Assembly (NCBI GenBank): GCA_028690665.1
Contig: JAQVAV010000006.1
Coordinates: 1 to 64,000, forward strand
DNA length: 64,000 nucleotides
DNA from: Paludibacter sp.
GTDB lineage: Bacteria; Bacteroidota; Bacteroidia; Bacteroidales; Paludibacteraceae
Direction of reading: 5' to 3'
Position numbers and translations under genes: made by a program. The notes beneath the pieces were generated by a model. The model did not search any database. It saw only the letters and a program-made list of their open reading frames with translations, and had not been told where the DNA came from. This document shows positions 28,733-37,894 of this stretch, one piece after another; the stretch's first letter is position 1, and every line of letters begins with the position of its first letter.

Positions 28733-29356
28733 ATGGATGTTGAAGCAATAAATGAGCGTTATACAAGCTTGAGCGAAACAAGCTGCTGTTTGTCGTGTGG
28801 CGGGGCAATTAATCATGCCAATGCGCAAACCAGTGAAATTTGTGTAGACTTAGGTAGTGGACGTGGTAATGATGTAATTCGTTTAGCCGAAGAAGTGGGC
28901 GAAACGGGCTACGTTTACGGAATAGATATTTCCGAGGGAATGATTGCCAAAGCTAAGTCTAATCTTGCAAAATTTGAAGTTGAAAATGCTGAAATTATTC
29001 AGGCCGAACTCGAAAAACTACCGTTAGAAGATAATAAAGTTAATTTGATTATTTCGAACTGTACTATTAATCACGCTTCGGATAAGGCGGCTGTATGGAA
29101 TGAAGTGTACCGGATTTTGAAACCTGGAGGTCGTTTTGTGGTCAGCGATATTTATGCTACCTCGCCGATTGCCGAAGAGTATCGCAACGATCCGGTTGCT
29201 GTGGCGGAGTGTTGGGCCGGCGCTGTAACCCGTGCCGAATACCTGACAATACTTGAAGCTGCCGGATTTCGTGACATTAAAATTTTTGAAGAATCTGATC
29301 CATATCCGAAAGGTTATGCAGAAGTTGCCAGCTGGACAATTTCCGGACAAAAATAA
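28733..29356 (+). CDS. Short ArsM-like SAM-dependent methyltransferase
   Basis: 207 residues, class I methyltransferase fold. The SAM-binding motif I is DLGSGRGND (39-47), with GIDISEGMI and LEKLPLEDNKVNLI. The closest family I recognise is arsenite methyltransferase ArsM: a paired-cysteine N-terminus (Cys18, Cys19, Cys22 in SCCLSCGG), Cys110 in SNCTINH and Cys160 in ECWAGAV occupy the three places where ArsM binds As(III), and DKAAVWNEVYRILKPGGR plus TRAEYLTILEAAGF match too. It lacks the C-terminal domain of typical ArsM enzymes (about 280-380 residues). The substrate may be a trivalent metalloid or another soft thiophilic compound, or the Cys-rich peptide 43 bases downstream. Its own regulon box and promoter precede it. 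Confidence 0.78.
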   Translation: MDVEAINERYTSLSETSCCLSCGGAINHANAQTSEICVDLGSGRGNDVIRLAEEVGETGYVYGIDISEGMIAKAKSNLAKFEVENAEIIQAELEKLPLEDNKVNLIISNCTINHASDKAAVWNEVYRILKPGGRFVVSDIYATSPIAEEYRNDPVAVAECWAGAVTRAEYLTILEAAGFRDIKIFEESDPYPKGYAEVASWTISGQK

Positions 29357-29399
29357 AACCCCGATATTGGGGATTATTCACCACAAAAATAATTTTTTT

Positions 29400-29513
29400 A
29401 TGAAAAGTGTAGTGAAAAAAAGCTGTGGATGCAAATCAAATGCTAACACAGAATCGAAACAGGCACAATGCTGTGCTAAAGTTTCGTCGATTGTAGCTGG
29501 TTGTCACGACTAA
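29400..29513 (+). CDS. 37-residue Cys-rich peptide, candidate RiPP precursor
   Basis: A small open frame from ATG 29400 to TAA 29511-29513, 43 bases after the methyltransferase and before a strong terminator and the radical SAM gene. It is basic at the N-terminus (MKSVVKKS) and has five cysteines at 9, 11, 24, 25 and 35 (CGC, CC and a terminal GCHD). It belongs to no family I know. Its place between a methyltransferase and a SPASM-type radical SAM enzyme is that of a precursor peptide, whose cysteines could become thioether bridges; it could also be a small metal- or arsenic-binding peptide. There is no signal peptide. Expression is inferred, not shown. Confidence 0.6.
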   Translation: MKSVVKKSCGCKSNANTESKQAQCCAKVSSIVAGCHD

Positions 29514-29528
29514 GTTACAAAACTTATG

Positions 29529-29566
29529 ACTTTTCCTAAGCCTTGTGCTTAGGAAAAGTTATTTTT
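29529..29566 (+). terminator. Terminator/attenuator between the peptide and the radical SAM gene
   Basis: A perfect 13-bp stem (29529-29541 with 29547-29559), a 5-base loop and a T-rich tail. It would make the methyltransferase-peptide message abundant and let only part of transcription reach the radical SAM gene, a layout often seen after precursor peptides. Confidence 0.85.
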
Positions 29567-29593
29567 AGATTTTATTGAAAAAATAACTAAAAT

Positions 29594-30895
29594 ATGGCAG
29601 TTTCCAAACATAATATCATTGTTCCGATTAAAGACTCAGAAGAGTTCTTGATTGTAAATCCGTTGCAAAAAACAGCAGACATCATTTCCGAAAATGAAAA
29701 AAACATGCTGAAGAATAATTTGGATCCCACCGGTGAATTTACAGCTCAGGGTTATCTGACAGACGAAGCAAAAGAAAAACGGGCTTTTAAAATGGCTTAT
29801 CTCGATTTTACTGAGAAACGTGAGGCCGATGAAACTCAGTTGTTCTTTGTTCCGAATTATTCCTGCAATTTTGCTTGTTCCTATTGTTATCAGGAAGGAT
29901 ATGAACCAGTTAAGCAGACTTTGAACAAAGATATTATCGATGCATTTTTTGATTATATAAAAGTAGAGTTTGCCGGGAAAAGAAAATACGTAACCGTATT
30001 TGGAGGAGAACCGTTGCTACCGGGTGAAAACCAGAGAAAATTAATTGCTTATTTCCTTCAAAAAGCGAACGAATTCCGATTGGATGTTGCTTTTGTGACG
30101 AACGGATATACTTTGGCTGAATATGTGGAGTTGTTGAAAACAGCCAGTATACGCGAAGTTCAGGTTACACTCGACGGAACACAGGAAATTCATGATTCGC
30201 GTCGTTACATGAAAGGGAAACTACCAACATTCGACAAAATTGTAACTGGAGTTGATGCTTGTCTGGAAGCCGGAATCAATATCAATTTACGTATGGTGGT
30301 TGATAAAGAGAATATTGATAATCTGGCTGATTTGTCCCGTTTTGCCATTGACCGTGGCTGGACAAAATCGTCTTTGTTCAAAACGCAAATCGGGCGAAAT
30401 TATGAACTCCATTTTTGCAACAGTACGCCCGACAGACTTTTCGACAGAGCTACCTTGTATGGTCATATATACGAATTGATGAAGAAGCATCCGTATATTG
30501 CCGAGTTTTATAAACCGGCTTATTCTATTGCCAAATACATTTCGGAAAATGGTGCTTTGCCGACTCCGTTGTTCGATTCTTGTCCGGCCTGTAAAACAGA
30601 ATGGGCTTTTGATTATACCGGAACCATATATTCGTGCACAGCTACCGTTGGTAAAAAAGGGGAGGAGCTGGGAACTTTTTATCCAAAAGTCACCAAGAAC
30701 GAGAACATTATTGAAGAATGGCAAAGTCGTGATATTACCACCATTGAAAAATGCAAAACCTGCGATGTGGCTTTGGCCTGTGGTGGAGGATGCGCCTCGG
30801 TAGCTAAGAATAAAAACGGACATGTAAATACTCCGGATTGCCGACCCATAAAAGAATTACTAAGTCTCGGAGCAGCCTATTATTTAAACAGATAG
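29594..30895 (+). CDS. Radical SAM/SPASM protein, candidate peptide maturase
   Basis: 433 residues. An N-terminal region of about 85 residues (KHNIIVPIKDSEEFLIVNPLQKTAD-type start, as in peptide-modifying members) precedes the radical SAM core with Cys91, Cys95 and Cys98 (CNFACSYC), GGEP at 137-140 and VTLDG at 191-195. The C-terminal SPASM region offers eight cysteines (330, 333, 348, 387, 390, 396, 400, 416), enough for two extra Fe-S clusters. This layout is typical of sulfatase maturases and RiPP enzymes forming thioether or C-C links. The Cys-rich peptide 80 bases upstream is the obvious candidate substrate. No sulfatase gene is nearby. Confidence 0.85.
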   Translation: MAVSKHNIIVPIKDSEEFLIVNPLQKTADIISENEKNMLKNNLDPTGEFTAQGYLTDEAKEKRAFKMAYLDFTEKREADETQLFFVPNYSCNFACSYCYQEGYEPVKQTLNKDIIDAFFDYIKVEFAGKRKYVTVFGGEPLLPGENQRKLIAYFLQKANEFRLDVAFVTNGYTLAEYVELLKTASIREVQVTLDGTQEIHDSRRYMKGKLPTFDKIVTGVDACLEAGININLRMVVDKENIDNLADLSRFAIDRGWTKSSLFKTQIGRNYELHFCNSTPDRLFDRATLYGHIYELMKKHPYIAEFYKPAYSIAKYISENGALPTPLFDSCPACKTEWAFDYTGTIYSCTATVGKKGEELGTFYPKVTKNENIIEEWQSRDITTIEKCKTCDVALACGGGCASVAKNKNGHVNTPDCRPIKELLSLGAAYYLNR

Positions 30896-31010: not shown

Positions 31011-32279
31011 ATGAAAGAAATTAATGCAGCTGAATTTCAGCAGGAAGTATTGAACGGAGGTAAAGTCGTTCTTGACTTTTATTCAACTGAATGTCCTCCG
31101 TGTGAAGCTTTGGCTCCTAAATTTGAAGCTATGGCGGAATTGTATGGAGAAAAAATCAAATTTTTGAAAATTTTCCGTCAGGGCAACCGTGAGTTGGCTG
31201 CAGAATTAGGTGTGAGTTCTTCTCCGACTTTGATTTTTTTTGATAACGGACAGAAGATTTTAGACACAATTAGTGGAGGTATCAAAAAATCGGAAATTAT
31301 GGATCACCTGGATCGGATGTTAACTCTAGACGAAGTTGCAGTTATCAAAGCCAATCAGAAAACTACCGTTTCTGAATATGATGTTGCTATATTGGGTGGA
31401 GGCCCTGCTGGACTGACAGCCGGAATTTATCTGGGACAGGCTAAAATTAAAACTGTGTTGATTGATCCTGCACTTCCGGGCGGTTATATGGGCATTACGC
31501 ATCAGGTATCGAACTATCCGGGTTTCGAGCAACCTCAGCCGGGATTTATGCTGGCTCATTATATGAGCGAACAGGCCAAACATACGGGCATTGATTTCAA
31601 AGTAGCTGTTGATATTACTTCGGTTGATTTGGCAAAAAAAGAAATTGTAATTGATGGTTTTGAAACCATTAAAGCCAAGAAAATAATTATTGCTACCGGA
31701 ACTACTCCTAACACAATGAACGCTCCGGGTGAAAAAGAATATAAGGGAAAAGGTATTTCATATTGCGCAACCTGCGACGCTAAATATTTTACAGATAAGG
31801 AAGTTACGGTAATTGGCGGTGGAAATTCGGCTGTTGAGGAAGCATTATTCATCACTAAATTTGCCAGCAAAATCACTATGATTCATCAGTTTGATAAACT
31901 GACAGCTAATCAGACTGCTATTGATGAGCTCAATAAGAATGAAAAAATTTCGGTTATGTACGAATGTGAACCACGTAAATTTGAAAAACGCGGTGATAAA
32001 ATGGTGACTTATGTTGAAGACCTGAAAACAAAAGAGTTGAAAGAATTAGTGAACGATGGTGTATTTGTATTTATCGGATTTAAGTCAAATATATCAGTTT
32101 TAGGTGATACATTGCCCGAATTGGATGGCTGGGGATATATCAAAACCAATGAAGATCGCCAGACTAATATTCCGGATGTTTTTGCTGTGGGAGATATTGT
32201 CAGCAAAAAATACCGCCAGATTACAACTGCCGTAGCCGATGGAACGATTGCCGCAATTACTATATCCAAAGAACTTTAA
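31011..32279 (+). CDS. Thioredoxin-thioredoxin reductase fusion
   Basis: 422 residues. Residues 1 to about 105 are a thioredoxin domain with an unusual CPPC active site (Cys28-Cys31 in STECPPCEAL). After a linker (about 105-120) comes a low-molecular-weight thioredoxin reductase: FAD motif VAILGGGPAGLTAG, redox site CATC (Cys252, Cys255), NADPH motif VIGGGNSAVEEA and the C-terminal FAVGDIVSKKYRQITTAVADG. Fused forms usually carry thioredoxin at the C-terminus; here it leads. It should make a self-contained NADPH-to-disulfide electron chain. DUF1847 starts 15 bases later, so the two are co-transcribed. Confidence 0.9.
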   Translation: MKEINAAEFQQEVLNGGKVVLDFYSTECPPCEALAPKFEAMAELYGEKIKFLKIFRQGNRELAAELGVSSSPTLIFFDNGQKILDTISGGIKKSEIMDHLDRMLTLDEVAVIKANQKTTVSEYDVAILGGGPAGLTAGIYLGQAKIKTVLIDPALPGGYMGITHQVSNYPGFEQPQPGFMLAHYMSEQAKHTGIDFKVAVDITSVDLAKKEIVIDGFETIKAKKIIIATGTTPNTMNAPGEKEYKGKGISYCATCDAKYFTDKEVTVIGGGNSAVEEALFITKFASKITMIHQFDKLTANQTAIDELNKNEKISVMYECEPRKFEKRGDKMVTYVEDLKTKELKELVNDGVFVFIGFKSNISVLGDTLPELDGWGYIKTNEDRQTNIPDVFAVGDIVSKKYRQITTAVADGTIAAITISKEL

Positions 32280-32294
32280 GAGCAAAATATTGAA

Positions 32295-32768
32295 ATGAGT
32301 TTAATAGAAGAACAAAAGAATTTATATTTAAAGTCGGATTTAAAAGTCATGCGCGCTGCTGAGGATTCTTTGCTCATGGGCCAAAACAGGGTAGAGGAAT
32401 TGAAACTGTATGCTGAGAATATGGGCGTAAAACGCATTGGTATTGCCCATTGCATAGGTATGACTAAAGAAGCGCAAAAACTAAAAGAACGGCTTTCGGA
32501 TAAATTTGAAGTTTATACGGTTGACTGCAAATATGCAAAAATAAAAGCTTCCGATTTGTTGAATGATGAAGATGTGACCGGAACCTCATGCAATCCTGCA
32601 GGTCAGGCCGATTATCTGGCGCAACACGAAACAGAGCTGAATATCTCATTCGGACTTTGTGTCGGGCACGATATTATGTTTAATATGAAGTCGAAAGTTC
32701 CCACGACTACTCTTGTGGTGAAAGATAGGGAACACAAACATAACCCGTTTCAGGAATTTCTGAAATAG
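32295..32768 (+). CDS. DUF1847 protein lacking the N-terminal cysteine motif
   Basis: 157 residues. MGVKRIGIAHCIGMTKEAQK, TGTSCNPAGQADYLAQ, ISFGLCVGHDIMFN and TTTLVVKDREHKHNPF are the DUF1847 blocks. Conserved cysteines remain in AHCIG, VDCKY, TSCNP and GLCVG, while the Cys-rich metal-binding N-terminus that many members have is absent. Function is unknown; members are anaerobe proteins thought to bind metal or Fe-S. It is coupled to the Trx-TrxR fusion, which may reduce it. Confidence 0.85.
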   Translation: MSLIEEQKNLYLKSDLKVMRAAEDSLLMGQNRVEELKLYAENMGVKRIGIAHCIGMTKEAQKLKERLSDKFEVYTVDCKYAKIKASDLLNDEDVTGTSCNPAGQADYLAQHETELNISFGLCVGHDIMFNMKSKVPTTTLVVKDREHKHNPFQEFLK

Positions 32769-32967: not shown

Positions 32968-33026
32968 TAACAGAAACAAAAAGAAAAACAAATTAATTAA
33001 AATAAAACATTAAAAACTTGTATGAT

Positions 33027-33404
33027 ATGGCAACGACTCATTTAACTAAATCCGATTTTCTGAAAAAAGTAGCAAACTACGAAGAAAATCCAACCGAATG
33101 GAAGTATTTAGGTGATAAACCCTGTGTAATTGATTTTTATGCAAACTGGTGCGGACCTTGTAAAATGGTAGCTCCAATTTTGGAAGATCTTTCCAAGGAA
33201 TACGAAAACGATATTTATATTTACAAAATTAATACCGAAGAAGAGGAGGAATTAGCAGCTGCATTTGGTATCCGCAGTATTCCAAGTATGCTCTTCTGCC
33301 CTATGAATGAAACGCCACAAATGGCTATGGGAGCATTACCCAAACAAAGTTTAAAACAAGCGATAGAAGAAGTTTTGTTAGGGAAAACAGTTGAAATAAA
33401 ATAG
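33027..33404 (+). CDS. trxA: Thioredoxin
   Basis: 125 residues from the ATG at 33027; an in-frame TTG 9 bases upstream is rejected. Classical active site WCGPC (Cys42, Cys45) in VIDFYANWCGPCKMVAPIL, and the cis-Pro in IRSIPSMLFC. It has an extended N-terminus (THLTKSDFLKKVANYEENPTEWKYLG) common in Bacteroidota. A cytosolic protein-disulfide reductant, it is likely fed by a thioredoxin reductase such as the fusion 0.7 kb upstream. It is monocistronic, with its own regulon box, promoter and terminator. Confidence 0.93.
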   Translation: MATTHLTKSDFLKKVANYEENPTEWKYLGDKPCVIDFYANWCGPCKMVAPILEDLSKEYENDIYIYKINTEEEEELAAAFGIRSIPSMLFCPMNETPQMAMGALPKQSLKQAIEEVLLGKTVEIK

Positions 33405-33654: not shown

Positions 33655-35940
33655 ATGGAAAAGATTGTAATTATTGGAGGTGTAGCCGCAGGTGCTACTG
33701 CAGCTGCAAAAGTCAGAAGGATTTCTCCTGATGCCCAAATAACTATGCTCGAAGCAGGACCGGATATTTCGTTTGCCAATTGTGGCCTGCCTTATTACAT
33801 TGGCGGTGATATTAAAAGCCGTTCGAAACTTATTTTGCAAAGTCCCGAAAGTTTTAAGGAACAATACAATGTCGATGTTTTTACACATACGCTTGTAATT
33901 GCTATCGACAGAGATGCTCATATTATTAAAACAAAAGATACTCGTGGCGGAGATTATAAGGAATATGAGTATACCAAACTGATTCTTGCTCAAGGTGGCC
34001 GTCCTATTAAACCTGCTTTACCTGGTGCTGATATGGGGCATGTATTTACGCTCTGGACACTCGAAGATATGGATAAAATTGCCCGTCATTTGGATGAGAA
34101 AAATCCTAAAACAGCCGTTGTTGTTGGTGGCGGATTTATTGGTCTCGAAATGGTGGAAGCTCTTACAAAACGTGGTTTAAAAGTGAGTGTGGTGGAAATG
34201 ATGCCTCACGTTATGGCTATTATGGAAGCCGAAACGGCCGGATTCATCGAAACTGAAATGCTTTCTTACGGAGTTGGAATTTATACAGGAACAGGAGTGA
34301 TCGAAATCAAACCGAAATCAGTAAAACTTGATAATGGAAAAGAGTTGGATGCAGATATGGTGTTGCTTTCCATTGGTGTTCGTCCAACTTTACAATTAGC
34401 CAAAGAAGCGGGTCTTGAAATGGGTGAAGCAGGTGGTTTGTTGGTTGATGAATATTTGCAAACTTCAGATGCTAATATTTACGGAGCTGGTGATATGGTT
34501 GAATTGGAAAATCGTGTAAGTGGTAAAAAAGTACGTATTCCGTTGGCCGGACCTGCTAACCGTCAGGGACGTATTGCTGCTGAAAATGCTTTGGGTGGAA
34601 AACATGTTTATAAAGGGGCTATCGGAACGTCAATCGTGCGTGTTTTCGAAGCTGTTGCCGGTACTACCGGACTTTCCTTGAAGCAGGCGCGTGCTGCCGG
34701 TATAGATGCCGATGCTATTGTCGTTCATAAAGAGCATCATACTTCTTACTATCCCGGAGCCGAACAGGTTACGGTAATGGTGATTTACGATAAAGCAACC
34801 GGAGTGATATTGGGCGGGCAAACAGCTGGATATGCCGGAGCAGACCGTCGTTTGGACGTTATCGCAACTGCGGCTGCCGCCAAACTTACAGTGAGCGACT
34901 TGGCGGATGTTGATTTTGCTTATTCTCCTCCGCTTGGAACAGCTAACGATGCCATTAATATGGCGGCTTATACGGCCGAAAACAAAATGCGGGGATTCAG
35001 TCCATCGGTAACAGTATCGGAATTGGATGCTTATGTTGATGGAAAAAATCCTGTATTTATTGATGTTCGTGACATTTTTGCATACGAAAAAACACATGTC
35101 ATGGGAGCTATGCACATTCCGTTGGAGCTTTTACCTGAAAAGTTGGATGTGATTTCTAAGAGCCGTCCTGTAATTGTTTATGATGAAACAGGAAAAAAAG
35201 GTCATCAGGCTTTACGTACCTTGGTTGGCGCAGGTTTCGAAAATGTAATCAATATTTCCGGCGGACATGCTTCTTTGCAACGTTACGAAAGAGCTATCGG
35301 CTTTAAAAATATCGATCTCGACTTGCTTCCGATAGAAAAGAAATCTCTGGAAAAAGAAGCCGAAGAGGAGGTTGAGGGAGAAACCGGCAATGCAGTTGAT
35401 GTAAATTCTCCAATTATTATTGATGTTCGTACTCCTGAAGAATTTCATGCAGGAGCTGTGCCTGATGCTGTTAATATCCCTTTGGATGAATTAATGAACC
35501 GCTACGAAGAACTTGGCAACAATGCCGATCGTGACATTACTGTTTATTGTGCTACAGGAGCCCGTTCGGCTTATGCACAGAGATTGTTGATGCAAATTGG
35601 CTATAGTAACGTGAAGAATGGTGGCGGACTGCATTCCATGATGGCTCAGGCCCGTACTGTTTCTCAACCGAAAAAGGAAAACAAAGCTTCGAATGAACCG
35701 TTGATTGTGGATGTTCGTACCCGTGGAGAATTCATGAGTGGTGCTTATCCGGGAGCTGTAAATATAGAACTTGATGAGTTAGTTCAAAAAGCTAATGAAT
35801 TGGGCGATAAATCACGAGATATAACTTTGTATTGTGCTTCCGGGGCTCGTTCGGCTTATGGTGTCAGAATGCTTCAGCAAATGGGCTTCACTAATGTGAA
35901 AAACGGTGGAGGTTTGATGCACATGATGATGCGAAGATAA
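33655..35940 (+). CDS. CoA-disulfide reductase-like flavoprotein with three rhodanese domains
   Basis: 761 residues. The first 445 or so form a FAD/NAD(P)H oxidoreductase: VIIGGVAAGATAAAKVRR, single active Cys43 in FANCGLPYYIGG (the CoADR/NADH-polysulfide reductase cysteine), VVVGGGFIGLEMVEA and IYGAGDMVE. Three rhodanese modules follow: about 455-550, where the active loop lacks cysteine (YDETGKKGHQ); about 568-665 with Cys632 (CATGARS); and about 680-761 with Cys727 (CASGARS). One rhodanese is usual in this family, three is not. It probably reduces CoA-disulfide, CoA-persulfide or polysulfide and relays sulfane sulfur. Under its own regulon box. Confidence 0.9.
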   Translation: MEKIVIIGGVAAGATAAAKVRRISPDAQITMLEAGPDISFANCGLPYYIGGDIKSRSKLILQSPESFKEQYNVDVFTHTLVIAIDRDAHIIKTKDTRGGDYKEYEYTKLILAQGGRPIKPALPGADMGHVFTLWTLEDMDKIARHLDEKNPKTAVVVGGGFIGLEMVEALTKRGLKVSVVEMMPHVMAIMEAETAGFIETEMLSYGVGIYTGTGVIEIKPKSVKLDNGKELDADMVLLSIGVRPTLQLAKEAGLEMGEAGGLLVDEYLQTSDANIYGAGDMVELENRVSGKKVRIPLAGPANRQGRIAAENALGGKHVYKGAIGTSIVRVFEAVAGTTGLSLKQARAAGIDADAIVVHKEHHTSYYPGAEQVTVMVIYDKATGVILGGQTAGYAGADRRLDVIATAAAAKLTVSDLADVDFAYSPPLGTANDAINMAAYTAENKMRGFSPSVTVSELDAYVDGKNPVFIDVRDIFAYEKTHVMGAMHIPLELLPEKLDVISKSRPVIVYDETGKKGHQALRTLVGAGFENVINISGGHASLQRYERAIGFKNIDLDLLPIEKKSLEKEAEEEVEGETGNAVDVNSPIIIDVRTPEEFHAGAVPDAVNIPLDELMNRYEELGNNADRDITVYCATGARSAYAQRLLMQIGYSNVKNGGGLHSMMAQARTVSQPKKENKASNEPLIVDVRTRGEFMSGAYPGAVNIELDELVQKANELGDKSRDITLYCASGARSAYGVRMLQQMGFTNVKNGGGLMHMMMRR

Positions 35941-36025
35941 TATCAATATATCAATGAGTTAATGTGGTTATACGCCAATTAACTCGTTGAGCTGATAAAT
36001 TTTATGAACTAATAATCTAAAATTG
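35940..36025. repeat. Degenerate dispersed repeat, partial copy D
   Basis: The gap before the membrane thioredoxin shows words similar to copies A-C (TCAATGAGTTAATG, GAGCTGATAAATTTTATGAAC). The relation is weaker than for B and C. Confidence 0.3.
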
Positions 36026-36028
36026 AAT

Positions 36029-36439
36029 ATGCAGACATTTTTAATAATTCTTGGAATAGTGCTTACGGCAATTTTGTTACTGAATATTTTTGCCCGGGCC
36101 AAAATGAAAAGTATGCCGAAAGTGGCAGATAGTGATAAAATTCTGACTTTGAACGATAAAAACTTTAATCAGCAAACCAAAGGCAAATTAGTGCTGGTCG
36201 ATTTTTGGGCCGAATGGTGTGCTCCTTGTCGTATGATGGCTCCGGTTTTGAATGAAGTTTCTAATGAGTTACCAGATGGAAAATATGTAGGTAAAGTCAA
36301 TATCGAAACTTATCAGTCCATGGCCCAACGTTTTAATGTTCGGAATATTCCTACTCTGATCCTTTTTAAAGATGGGAAAGAAATTAATCGTTTTGTGGGT
36401 GTAAAAACAAAAGATTTTCTTTTGAAAAACATGAAATAA
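36029..36439 (+). CDS. Membrane-anchored thioredoxin
   Basis: 136 residues from the ATG at 36029 (an in-frame TTG at 36023 is less likely). A membrane helix (about 3-21, TFLIILGIVLTAILLLNIF) tethers a thioredoxin domain with WCAPC (Cys64, Cys67) in LVDFWAEWCAPCRMMAPVL and cis-Pro in IPTLILFKDGKE. The topology is not decided by sequence; basic residues after the helix (RAKMKS) favour a cytosolic domain. It lies 88 bases after the CoADR-like gene and could be co-transcribed with it. Confidence 0.88.
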   Translation: MQTFLIILGIVLTAILLLNIFARAKMKSMPKVADSDKILTLNDKNFNQQTKGKLVLVDFWAEWCAPCRMMAPVLNEVSNELPDGKYVGKVNIETYQSMAQRFNVRNIPTLILFKDGKEINRFVGVKTKDFLLKNMK

Positions 36440-36727: not shown

Positions 36728-37894
36728 ATGAAAAAAGTTTTAATATTAGGGGGCGGTTTTGCCGGAGTTGAGACTGCAATTGATTTGCAAAAGAGAAAAA
36801 TGTTTGATGTGACATTAGTGTCGGATCGCGATTTTCTCTTTGTTTTCCCGATTTCAATCTGGGTTCCGATTCATGAATTGAAATATGAAAATGCACAGAT
36901 TAAGCTGGCTGATATACAGAAAAAATACGGTTTTAATCTGATTATTGATAAAGTAGCATCTGTCAGTGCCGGAGAAAAGCAGGTCACACTCGAAAATCAG
37001 ACATTGACTTATGATTATTTGGTAGTGGCTTTTGGAGGTGGCAAAATGCAACCTAAGGGAGTGGAATATACTACTACTATTTGCGGACAACCGCAACAAA
37101 CACTTCAGCTTCGGGAGAAATTGGATGCTCTGGTAGCTAAAGGTTCAGGAAAGATAGCTATTGGTTTTGGTGGAAATCCGAAAGATAAGTCTGCCGTTCG
37201 TGGAGGTCCTGCTTTTGAGCTGATTTTCAATATCAATCACTATCTGAAAAAGAAAGGACTTCGTGATGATTTTGAACTTACAATGTTTGCGCCTATGGTC
37301 GAGCCGGGAGCTAAAATGGGTAAAGGTGCTTTGCAGGCTATTCATAAAATGTTTAAATCGCAAAACATAAAAAGTCGTTTTGGAAAGAAAATAACCGAGT
37401 TTATGGCCGATGGAGTGATGTTCGAAGATGGTTCTAAATTAGAGTCGGATTTGGTCATGTTTATTGCGGCTGGAGCTGGTTCTTCGTTGATGAAAAATAC
37501 CGATCTCCCGTTGTCGGAAGCCGGATTCATTAAAGTAAACGATTATAATCAGGTACAGGGGTATACCGATATTTTTGCCATTGGTGATGCTGCTGCTTAT
37601 GAAGGTCCCGACTGGACCGCAAAACAAGGACACATTGCAGAAGTAATGGGACGGAATGTTGCTCATAACATAGTTGAGTTGGAAAAAAACGGCTCGAATA
37701 TGAAAGGCTATCAGGCACATCTGAGTATTATGTGCGTTATGGATATGGGCAATGGAGCCGCTTTTGTCTATCGCGATCGGAAAAGAGAAATAATGATCCC
37801 TATGCCTATTGTTGGTCATTGGCTGAAACAGGCTTGGGGTAAATATGCCAAATGGAGCAAATTAGGACTTATTCGTCGTTTGCCGGGAATGTAA
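36728..37894 (+). CDS. Sulfide:quinone reductase-like flavoprotein
   Basis: 388 residues. FAD motif VLILGGGFAGVETAIDL, SVDFLFVFPISIW-like active loop, LTYDYLVVAFGGG, IFAIGDAAAY near 290, and a C-terminal amphipathic stretch ending WSKLGLIRRLPGM, which is typical of the SQR/NDH-2 group and may dock to the membrane. Only two cysteines stand out (TTICGQ and SIMCVMD); the full set of three redox cysteines of true SQR is not evident, so sulfide oxidation is uncertain. The neighbourhood of rhodanese and thioredoxin genes supports a sulfur role. A MITE-like gap separates it from the thioredoxin. Confidence 0.82.
   Translation: MKKVLILGGGFAGVETAIDLQKRKMFDVTLVSDRDFLFVFPISIWVPIHELKYENAQIKLADIQKKYGFNLIIDKVASVSAGEKQVTLENQTLTYDYLVVAFGGGKMQPKGVEYTTTICGQPQQTLQLREKLDALVAKGSGKIAIGFGGNPKDKSAVRGGPAFELIFNINHYLKKKGLRDDFELTMFAPMVEPGAKMGKGALQAIHKMFKSQNIKSRFGKKITEFMADGVMFEDGSKLESDLVMFIAAGAGSSLMKNTDLPLSEAGFIKVNDYNQVQGYTDIFAIGDAAAYEGPDWTAKQGHIAEVMGRNVAHNIVELEKNGSNMKGYQAHLSIMCVMDMGNGAAFVYRDRKREIMIPMPIVGHWLKQAWGKYAKWSKLGLIRRLPGM

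Follow-up and report, generated by a model that had tools for sequence, protein, structure and literature searches.

Radical S-adenosylmethionine (SAM) enzymes of the SPASM type that mature ribosomally synthesized and post-translationally modified peptides (RiPPs) are known for the production of antibiotics and of the cofactors PQQ and mycofactocin. In one such family, SCIFF, the precursor carries six cysteines within forty-five residues. Here we describe a locus in a 64,000-nt stretch of Paludibacter sp. DNA (assembly GCA_028690665.1, contig JAQVAV010000006.1, positions 1 to 64,000; referred to as the window, with all coordinates given for its full length). Three genes on the + strand encode a short ArsM-derived class I methyltransferase (MT), a 37-residue precursor-like peptide and a radical SAM/SPASM enzyme (rSAM). 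We take this cassette as evidence of a hitherto undescribed modified-peptide family, one that probably acts intracellularly in the company of sulfur-handling genes and not in ordinary arsenic resistance.

Among described systems, the SCIFF pair CteA/CteB (TIGR03974; structures 5wgg and 5why) is the closest on the side of the rSAM. Both enzymes are radical SAM/SPASM proteins with an N-terminal domain and a short peptide with C-terminal cysteines as known or presumed substrate, and CteB is the best match of the window's rSAM by sequence as well as by fold. However, the rSAM scores 88.5 bits against a SCIFF maturase cut-off of 425, the cassette peptide has three universal cysteines rather than six, the SCIFF model matched none of 35 cassette peptides, and the cassette adds an ArsM-like MT and a thioredoxin-thioredoxin reductase (Trx-TrxR) fusion. 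The ranthipeptide system PapA/PapB (NF047865) likewise has Cys and Asp in the core (C35-x-D37 in the window), but the rSAM reaches 123.2 bits where the cut-off is 340, and the cassette peptide lacks repeated CX3D motifs. The best NCBIfam matches over nearly the whole rSAM are the Cys-every-fifth maturase CefB (NF038107) and rSAM_vs_C_rich (TIGR04463), at 141.5 and 132.3 bits; these fall below the cut-offs of 600 and 525, and the cassette peptide has no periodic cysteines. On the side of the methyltransferase, ArsM/AS3MT (NF008823; CmArsM structures 4fr0-4kw7) shares the SAM domain, the equivalents of C72/C174/C224 and the closest folds. In contrast to ArsM, the MT scores 195.7 bits against a cut-off of 263, has no C-terminal domain and belongs to a separate clade (at least 44% identity) tied to the peptide and not to ACR3. 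The ArsQML arsinothricin cluster also places an ArsM gene next to a radical SAM gene (PMC8552651). There, ArsL works on As(III) and likely possesses just one Fe-S cluster; a peptide is lacking, and no relation to SPASM enzymes is shown. A 2023 survey of Bacteroidales RiPPs gives no rSAM areas of interest in Paludibacteraceae, for which two genomes are tabulated (PMC10352776). The enzyme class is a known one, whereas neither the precursor family nor its pairing with an ArsM-derived MT and a Trx-TrxR fusion is described in the literature that we searched, which was open access and left subscription papers mostly outside its scope.

A conserved short peptide gene

The peptide gene (29400 to 29513, +) encodes MKSVVKKSCGCKSNANTESKQAQCCAKVSSIVAGCHD, with cysteines at positions 9, 11, 24, 25 and 35. 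By scanning contigs of 84,980 species we found 206 relatives of the rSAM, and the best 80 loci were used for comparison. A peptide with the motif CC-x8-GCHD immediately before the stop codon is present at 78 of these 80 loci (at L089, the start of the peptide falls beyond the contig end). In an alignment of 35 peptides, a conserved MKSLVKK-like N terminus is followed by a variable linker and then by a conserved 16-residue C terminus. The N-terminal segment, MK[SN][LV][VI]KK (29400 to 29420, +), is a putative leader or recognition segment, and the C-terminal core is AQCCAKxSxxxxGCHD (29463 to 29510, +). Eleven columns of the alignment are invariant: M1, A22, C24, C25, A26, K27, S29, G34, C35, H36 and D37. 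The core exists in 83 distinct DNA versions that translate into 30 amino acid versions, with the mean entropy rising from 0.22 bits at the first codon position to 0.33 at the second and 1.31 at the third. The presence of the core at nearly all rSAM loci, together with variation that lies mostly at third codon positions, indicates that the peptide is a real gene, and a chance open reading frame is ruled out by the same observations. We also rejected a longer, 86-codon frame that starts at 29253, since all 35 aligned sequences begin at the ATG at 29400. What lies beside the modifying enzyme is a conserved, translated short precursor, as is general for RiPPs.

A previous sequence-only reading of the window had given positions and residues for the MT, the peptide, a terminator and the rSAM, all of which we verified. 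It had also predicted that the peptide would be conserved beside homologs of both enzymes, with absence of such conservation set beforehand as its refutation; the peptide is so conserved. The pattern that it proposed, C-x-C...C-C...GC-H-D, held in its C-terminal part, and the cysteines C24, C25 and C35 are invariant in the 35 aligned peptides. The N-terminal pair did not prove general: among 80 peptides with a recognized start, two cysteines precede the core in 27, one in 1 and none in 52. Three cysteines are thus universal in the family, compared with five in the window peptide, and the C-x-C of the linker (Cys9/Cys11) is a clade-specific feature rather than a family signature.

That the peptide lies outside named families was likewise sustained. 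The window peptide matched no NCBIfam or Pfam family at an E value of 0.01, and none of the 35 members had an NCBIfam match below E = 0.08, three of them having one weak match each (E 0.08 to 0.13). A plasmid-borne system was considered and rejected: among 72,556 plasmid records there was no peptide match, rSAM matches reached at most about 29% identity and MT matches stayed below 60%.

The peptide gene is separated from the MT gene by 43 nt and from the rSAM gene by 80 nt, and a further 115 nt separate the rSAM and Trx-TrxR genes. The gap between peptide and rSAM contains a terminator-like hairpin of 16 pairs (29526 to 29562, +), a possible attenuator, which is one of 11 hairpin-like sites in an 8-kb scan (shuffled mean, 5.4). 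The strong terminator of the sequence-only reading is present in the window, but it is not general. By the rule of our script, such a hairpin occurs in 20 of the 54 peptide-rSAM gaps of at least 45 nt, the window included, and the remaining 23 of the 77 gaps measured do not exceed 23 nt, so that the terminator is an optional feature. A search of the window against Rfam matched no RNA element.

The two enzymes of the cassette

The rSAM (29594 to 30895, +; 433 residues) contains a radical SAM domain (PF04055) with the CX3CX2C motif at Cys 91/95/98 and eight C-terminal cysteines at 330, 333, 348, 387, 390, 396, 400 and 416. Across 50 rSAM sequences, the motif and all of these C-terminal cysteines except C333 are invariant; C333 itself is kept in at least 90%. 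Its top NCBIfam matches are all RiPP maturases (CefB, TIGR04463, Clo7bot and PapB), each far below its cut-off. An AlphaFold2 model with a predicted local distance difference test score (pLDDT) of 86.9 found CteB, an enzyme that forms thioethers, as its best match in the PDB (5wgg, E 5e-17, template modeling score 0.68, 477 alignment columns; also 5why), followed by an anaerobic sulfatase maturase, SuiB and ChlB. Residues 8 to 76, approximately, form a domain of three strands followed by three helices. These results bear out the previous assignment of the enzyme to the SPASM RiPP-maturase type, along with its eight C-terminal cysteines.

The MT (28733 to 29356, +; 207 residues) has cysteines at positions 18, 19, 22, 37, 110 and 160. 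In an alignment to 4kw7, C22, C110 and C160 correspond to C72, C174 and C224 of CmArsM, which are its As(III)-binding cysteines (PMC12608789). This alignment stops at residue 249 of the 377-residue CmArsM chain, and in a fold search the first 13 ranks were all ArsM or AS3MT structures. Cys19, 22, 37, 110 and 160 are kept in all 76 MT sequences compared and Cys18 in 75 of them; three loci with partial matches only (L038, L081 and L109) were left out of this set. The protein is an ArsM-derived class I methyltransferase; as the sequence-only reading had noted, it has the ArsM cysteine positions but no ArsM C-terminal domain.

The short MTs are also distinct from the ArsM-like genes (33 to 40% identical) found in the same genomes. 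A search of 149 related genomes returned 83 rows, of which 40, in 39 genomes, had at least 44% identity and 43 had less. We counted 38 short MTs, leaving out a contig-edge fragment in G019 (in G012, the MT is split across two contigs), and 41 other ArsM-like genes, leaving out the two weakest. The possibility that the short MT replaces full-length ArsM was rejected, because other ArsM-like genes occur in 19 of 38 short-MT genomes versus 22 of 111 others (p = 0.0006); within the genus, the figures are 15 of 28 and 6 of 20 (p = 0.14).

Linkage of the cassette genes across Bacteroidota

The evidence on distribution comes from Bacteroidota, and from the best 80 of the 206 rSAM relatives. An MT homolog lies upstream of the rSAM in 74 of the 80 loci; among the six without one, the sequence preceding the rSAM is limited to 0.8 kb or less in four (L076, L084, L089 and L101), whereas two (L070 and L078) have room. 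A Trx-TrxR fusion directly follows the rSAM in 75 of the 78 loci with room for it. In the 149 genomes, the rSAM was found in 39 (E 1e-60), the peptide in 39 and both in 37, a co-occurrence with a Fisher p value of 4e-30, uncorrected for kinship. All but one of the 39 peptide genomes contain the short MT, which otherwise was found only as the G019 fragment. In both genomes scored as having the rSAM only (G017 and G044), the rSAM is cut at a contig end, and G021, scored as having the peptide only, carries the MT, the peptide and the first 120 rSAM residues at a contig edge. In a sample of 395 genomes from the phylum, the same 6 carry a clear peptide (E 1.4e-10 or better) and an rSAM of at least 54% identity. 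From this sample we set aside five genomes with rSAM matches of only 28 to 32% and two weak peptide matches: one in G192 (E 0.003), which is part of a longer frame and has no terminal Asp, and one in G202 (E 0.008), which covers positions 5 to 31 only. The MT-peptide-rSAM cassette is found in many Bacteroidota. For rSAM, MT and Trx-TrxR, pairwise identities over 66 loci are correlated (r = 0.82 to 0.88), as would also be expected from common descent by itself.

Within the cassette, the closest association is that of MT and peptide, which remain neighbors where the rSAM lies elsewhere. At L052 and L056, the rSAM is 2.5 and 1.4 kb off while the MT still adjoins the peptide, and in G542 and G543 the pair is apart from the rSAM of the same genome. 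At L149 and L150, MT-peptide pairs apart from the rSAM adjoin a DUF1847 gene and a protein with a match to the C-terminal region of MrpORP, an Fe-S carrier (NF041136).

More distant rSAMs (L131 to L136, 28 to 32% identity) have no GCHD peptide in their flanks as judged by pattern. Two of them (L131 and L132, about 29%) are followed by other cysteine-containing proteins of 52 to 61 residues that resemble the precursors of other maturase families.

Sulfur, arsenic and the possible role of the peptide

Downstream of the rSAM, the window encodes a series of proteins on the + strand. The Trx-TrxR fusion (31011 to 32279; 422 residues) matches PF00085 in the region of residues 1 to 103, Pyr_redox_2, and TIGR01292 at 297 bits. 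It is followed by a DUF1847 protein (32295 to 32768; PF08901, E 4.7e-35), a thioredoxin (33018 to 33404; TIGR01068 at 109.5 bits, above cut-off) and a CoA-disulfide-reductase-like protein fused to three rhodanese domains (33655 to 35940; TIGR03385 and three PF00581 stretches). Next are another thioredoxin-like protein (36023 to 36439), which has a hydrophobic segment at its N terminus and was recognized by its sequence and WCAPC motif only, and a sulfide:quinone-reductase (SQR)-like flavoprotein (36728 to 37894) that matches Pyr_redox_2 and, below cut-off, the type III SQR model NF049943 (E 8e-25). Across the 80 loci, the other neighbors include DUF302 (34 loci), zinc-ribbon (30), DUF1847 (29 to 30), DUF6132 (28), CoA-disulfide-reductase-like (27), SQR-like (14), Crp (12), TauE (8), OsmC (7) and YeeE (2) genes, as well as rhodanese regions, and their common theme is thiol and sulfur chemistry. 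The zinc-ribbon neighbor is a small, divergently transcribed protein with a zinc ribbon of the IS1595 type (PF12760; for example, L098:2933-3364, - strand) that is not beside the cassette in the window; it is perhaps a domesticated transposase fragment acting as a regulator.

The reading that we favor, and to which we assign an even chance, is that the cassette makes an intracellular thiol peptide, modified by the rSAM, that serves as carrier or co-substrate for the ArsM-derived MT. The N-terminal domain of the rSAM would bind the conserved N-terminal segment of the peptide, and the enzyme would then modify the cysteines of the core; that the peptide is its substrate is quite likely. The modification would most plausibly be a thioether of the CteB/PapB kind, an assignment that we make tentatively and at somewhat less than even confidence. 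C35-x-D37 would suit a Cys-Asp link: PapB joins Cys to Asp or Glu and accepts Cys-Xn-Asp with n = 0 to 6 (PMC9413430), and by analogy a thioether at C35-H-D37 is our guess. Rather than being exported, the matured peptide would serve the cell as a small thiol carrier or as a co-substrate, and the three conserved MT cysteines may bind the same soft atom as the peptide, although we lean slightly against such a shared atom. The adjoining Trx-TrxR fusion would hold the thiols reduced; AS3MT activity is described as requiring Trx, TrxR and NADPH (PMC12608789). Whether the atom would be sulfur or selenium, rather than arsenic, we consider close to a toss-up.

A more specific form of this proposal is rather unlikely. 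It would make the mature peptide a ribosomally made, rSAM-built tri-thiol (CC + C) cofactor that presents sulfane sulfur, selenium or trivalent arsenic to the MT, with the fusion as a private NADPH-Trx-TrxR reductant and with a single ligand moved between the two partners, located in an MT tail in most lineages and in the peptide linker in the Paludibacter clade. A C-terminal cysteine tail of the CxC or CCC type, metallothionein-like (GGCCCSR or GCGCSCGC, such as in L064 and L086), is found on 45 of 81 MTs. Most members of the Paludibacter clade lack it and instead bear a cysteine pair in the linker of the peptide. Of the 81 loci compared, the tail alone occurs in 44 and the linker motif alone in 28, one (L048) combines them and 8 show neither; L050 belongs to the Paludibacter clade but carries a tail without a linker motif. 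The rSAM tree implies 9 changes in the tail and 2 in the linker motif, which makes the exclusion mainly one clade-level switch from which coupling is not demonstrable. As a series of independent events, the exchange is not significant, and we keep the pattern as a lead that MT and peptide share a ligand site.

Several observations weigh against the favored reading. An independent-pairs test of the tail/linker exclusion was unable to reach significance. The CC-x8-GCHD-stop motif is absent at the rSAM loci L070 and L078. Every family score of the rSAM is far below its curated cut-off, and its N-terminal domain, searched alone against Pfam, had no match; we infer that this domain resembles a RiPP recognition element from its secondary structure and from fold alignments of 460 to 477 columns, for which ranges were not given. 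The MT model has a pLDDT below 50 around Cys18-21. The main fact against an obligatory trio is G126 (99% complete, 60 contigs), in which both the rSAM (at E 1e-6) and the short MT are missing and the peptide lies beside a generic class I methyltransferase. Either enzyme can therefore be missing, and a methyltransferase neighbor of the peptide persists even there. The same peptide, on contig 3 (L147), is also near a small cysteine-rich protein, a Fur-like gene and a peroxiredoxin.

Alternatively, the peptide could carry a persulfide or selenide that the MT would S- or Se-methylate, alongside Trx-TrxR, rhodanese, CoA-disulfide reductase and SQR-like enzymes. This reading is somewhat unlikely. 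Sulfur genes do surround the cassette, both in the window and across the 80 loci, but only the Trx-TrxR fusion is nearly universal, with the others in a minority of loci. Rhodanese occurs at 25 loci versus 0.8 expected in 779 kb (from 4 per 4.05 Mb in the window's own genome), an excess to be read with the expectation coming from a Pfam model, the locus count coming from tblastn and the loci being related to one another. Selenocysteine-bearing ArsM relatives are known (PMC13188914), yet nothing ties the active site of the MT to sulfur.

We judge unlikely an arsenic-specific function in which As(III) would be methylated by the MT and the cysteine peptide, with or without modification, would either carry arsenic or be a product that contains it. 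The ancestry of the MT and its three conserved As(III) cysteines favor this function, and pairs of ArsM and radical SAM enzymes make organoarsenicals such as arsinothricin and arsenosugars (PMC8552651); however, arsenic is the direct target of ArsL and ArsS, in contrast to the cassette rSAM, which is of the SPASM RiPP type. We tested linkage to arsenic resistance through the ACR3 exporter only, and not through ArsB or other exporters. None of the 38 short MTs has ACR3 within 10 kb, compared with 29 of the 41 other ArsM-like genes (p = 2e-12; 29 of 43 if the two weakest matches are kept), although some short-MT contigs are shorter than the full test distance (17 of the first 30 named reach 20 kb). 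Three true ACR3 queries had no match in the 80 cassette loci. ACR3 above cut-off is more common in short-MT genomes (33 of 38 versus 49 of 111 others; p = 3e-6), but this association vanishes within the genus (25 of 28 versus 16 of 20; p = 0.43). Because the short MTs lie apart from ACR3 while the other ArsM-like genes do not, the cassette is not an ars operon, and the arsenic role suggested by the sequence-only reading, which was based only on MT ancestry and cysteines, is weakened.

It is improbable that the rSAM acts on another substrate and leaves the peptide unmodified, as a Cys/His peptide with a metal or redox role. The peptide does occur away from the rSAM in L052, L056, G542, G543 and G126, but the two are together in 37 of the 41 relatives with either, three of the four discordant cases are contig-edge effects, and a conserved N-terminal segment such as this one typically marks a leader. 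A secreted RiPP, antimicrobial or signal, tailored by the MT is also improbable: ranthipeptides and sactipeptides are usually laid out as a small cysteine peptide plus an rSAM/SPASM enzyme (PMC10352776) and another class I methyltransferase replaces the ArsM-like one in G126, but the core hardly varies among Bacteroidota families, unlike typical antimicrobials, a tailoring enzyme would have no need of three invariant ArsM cysteines, and the recurrent neighbor clusters annotated by Pfam, rare neighbors being outside that annotation, include no transporter or peptide exporter, protease or immunity gene.

The favored reading, a thiol peptide that works with the MT inside the cell, is directly testable, because the enzyme, a minimal substrate and a partner are all defined. 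A nearly invariant core that is found across the phylum and tied to an ArsM-descended MT and a Trx-TrxR fusion would bring together two fields whose only meeting point so far is small-molecule organoarsenicals. It would also suggest that a peptide serves as cofactor for methylating a soft element.

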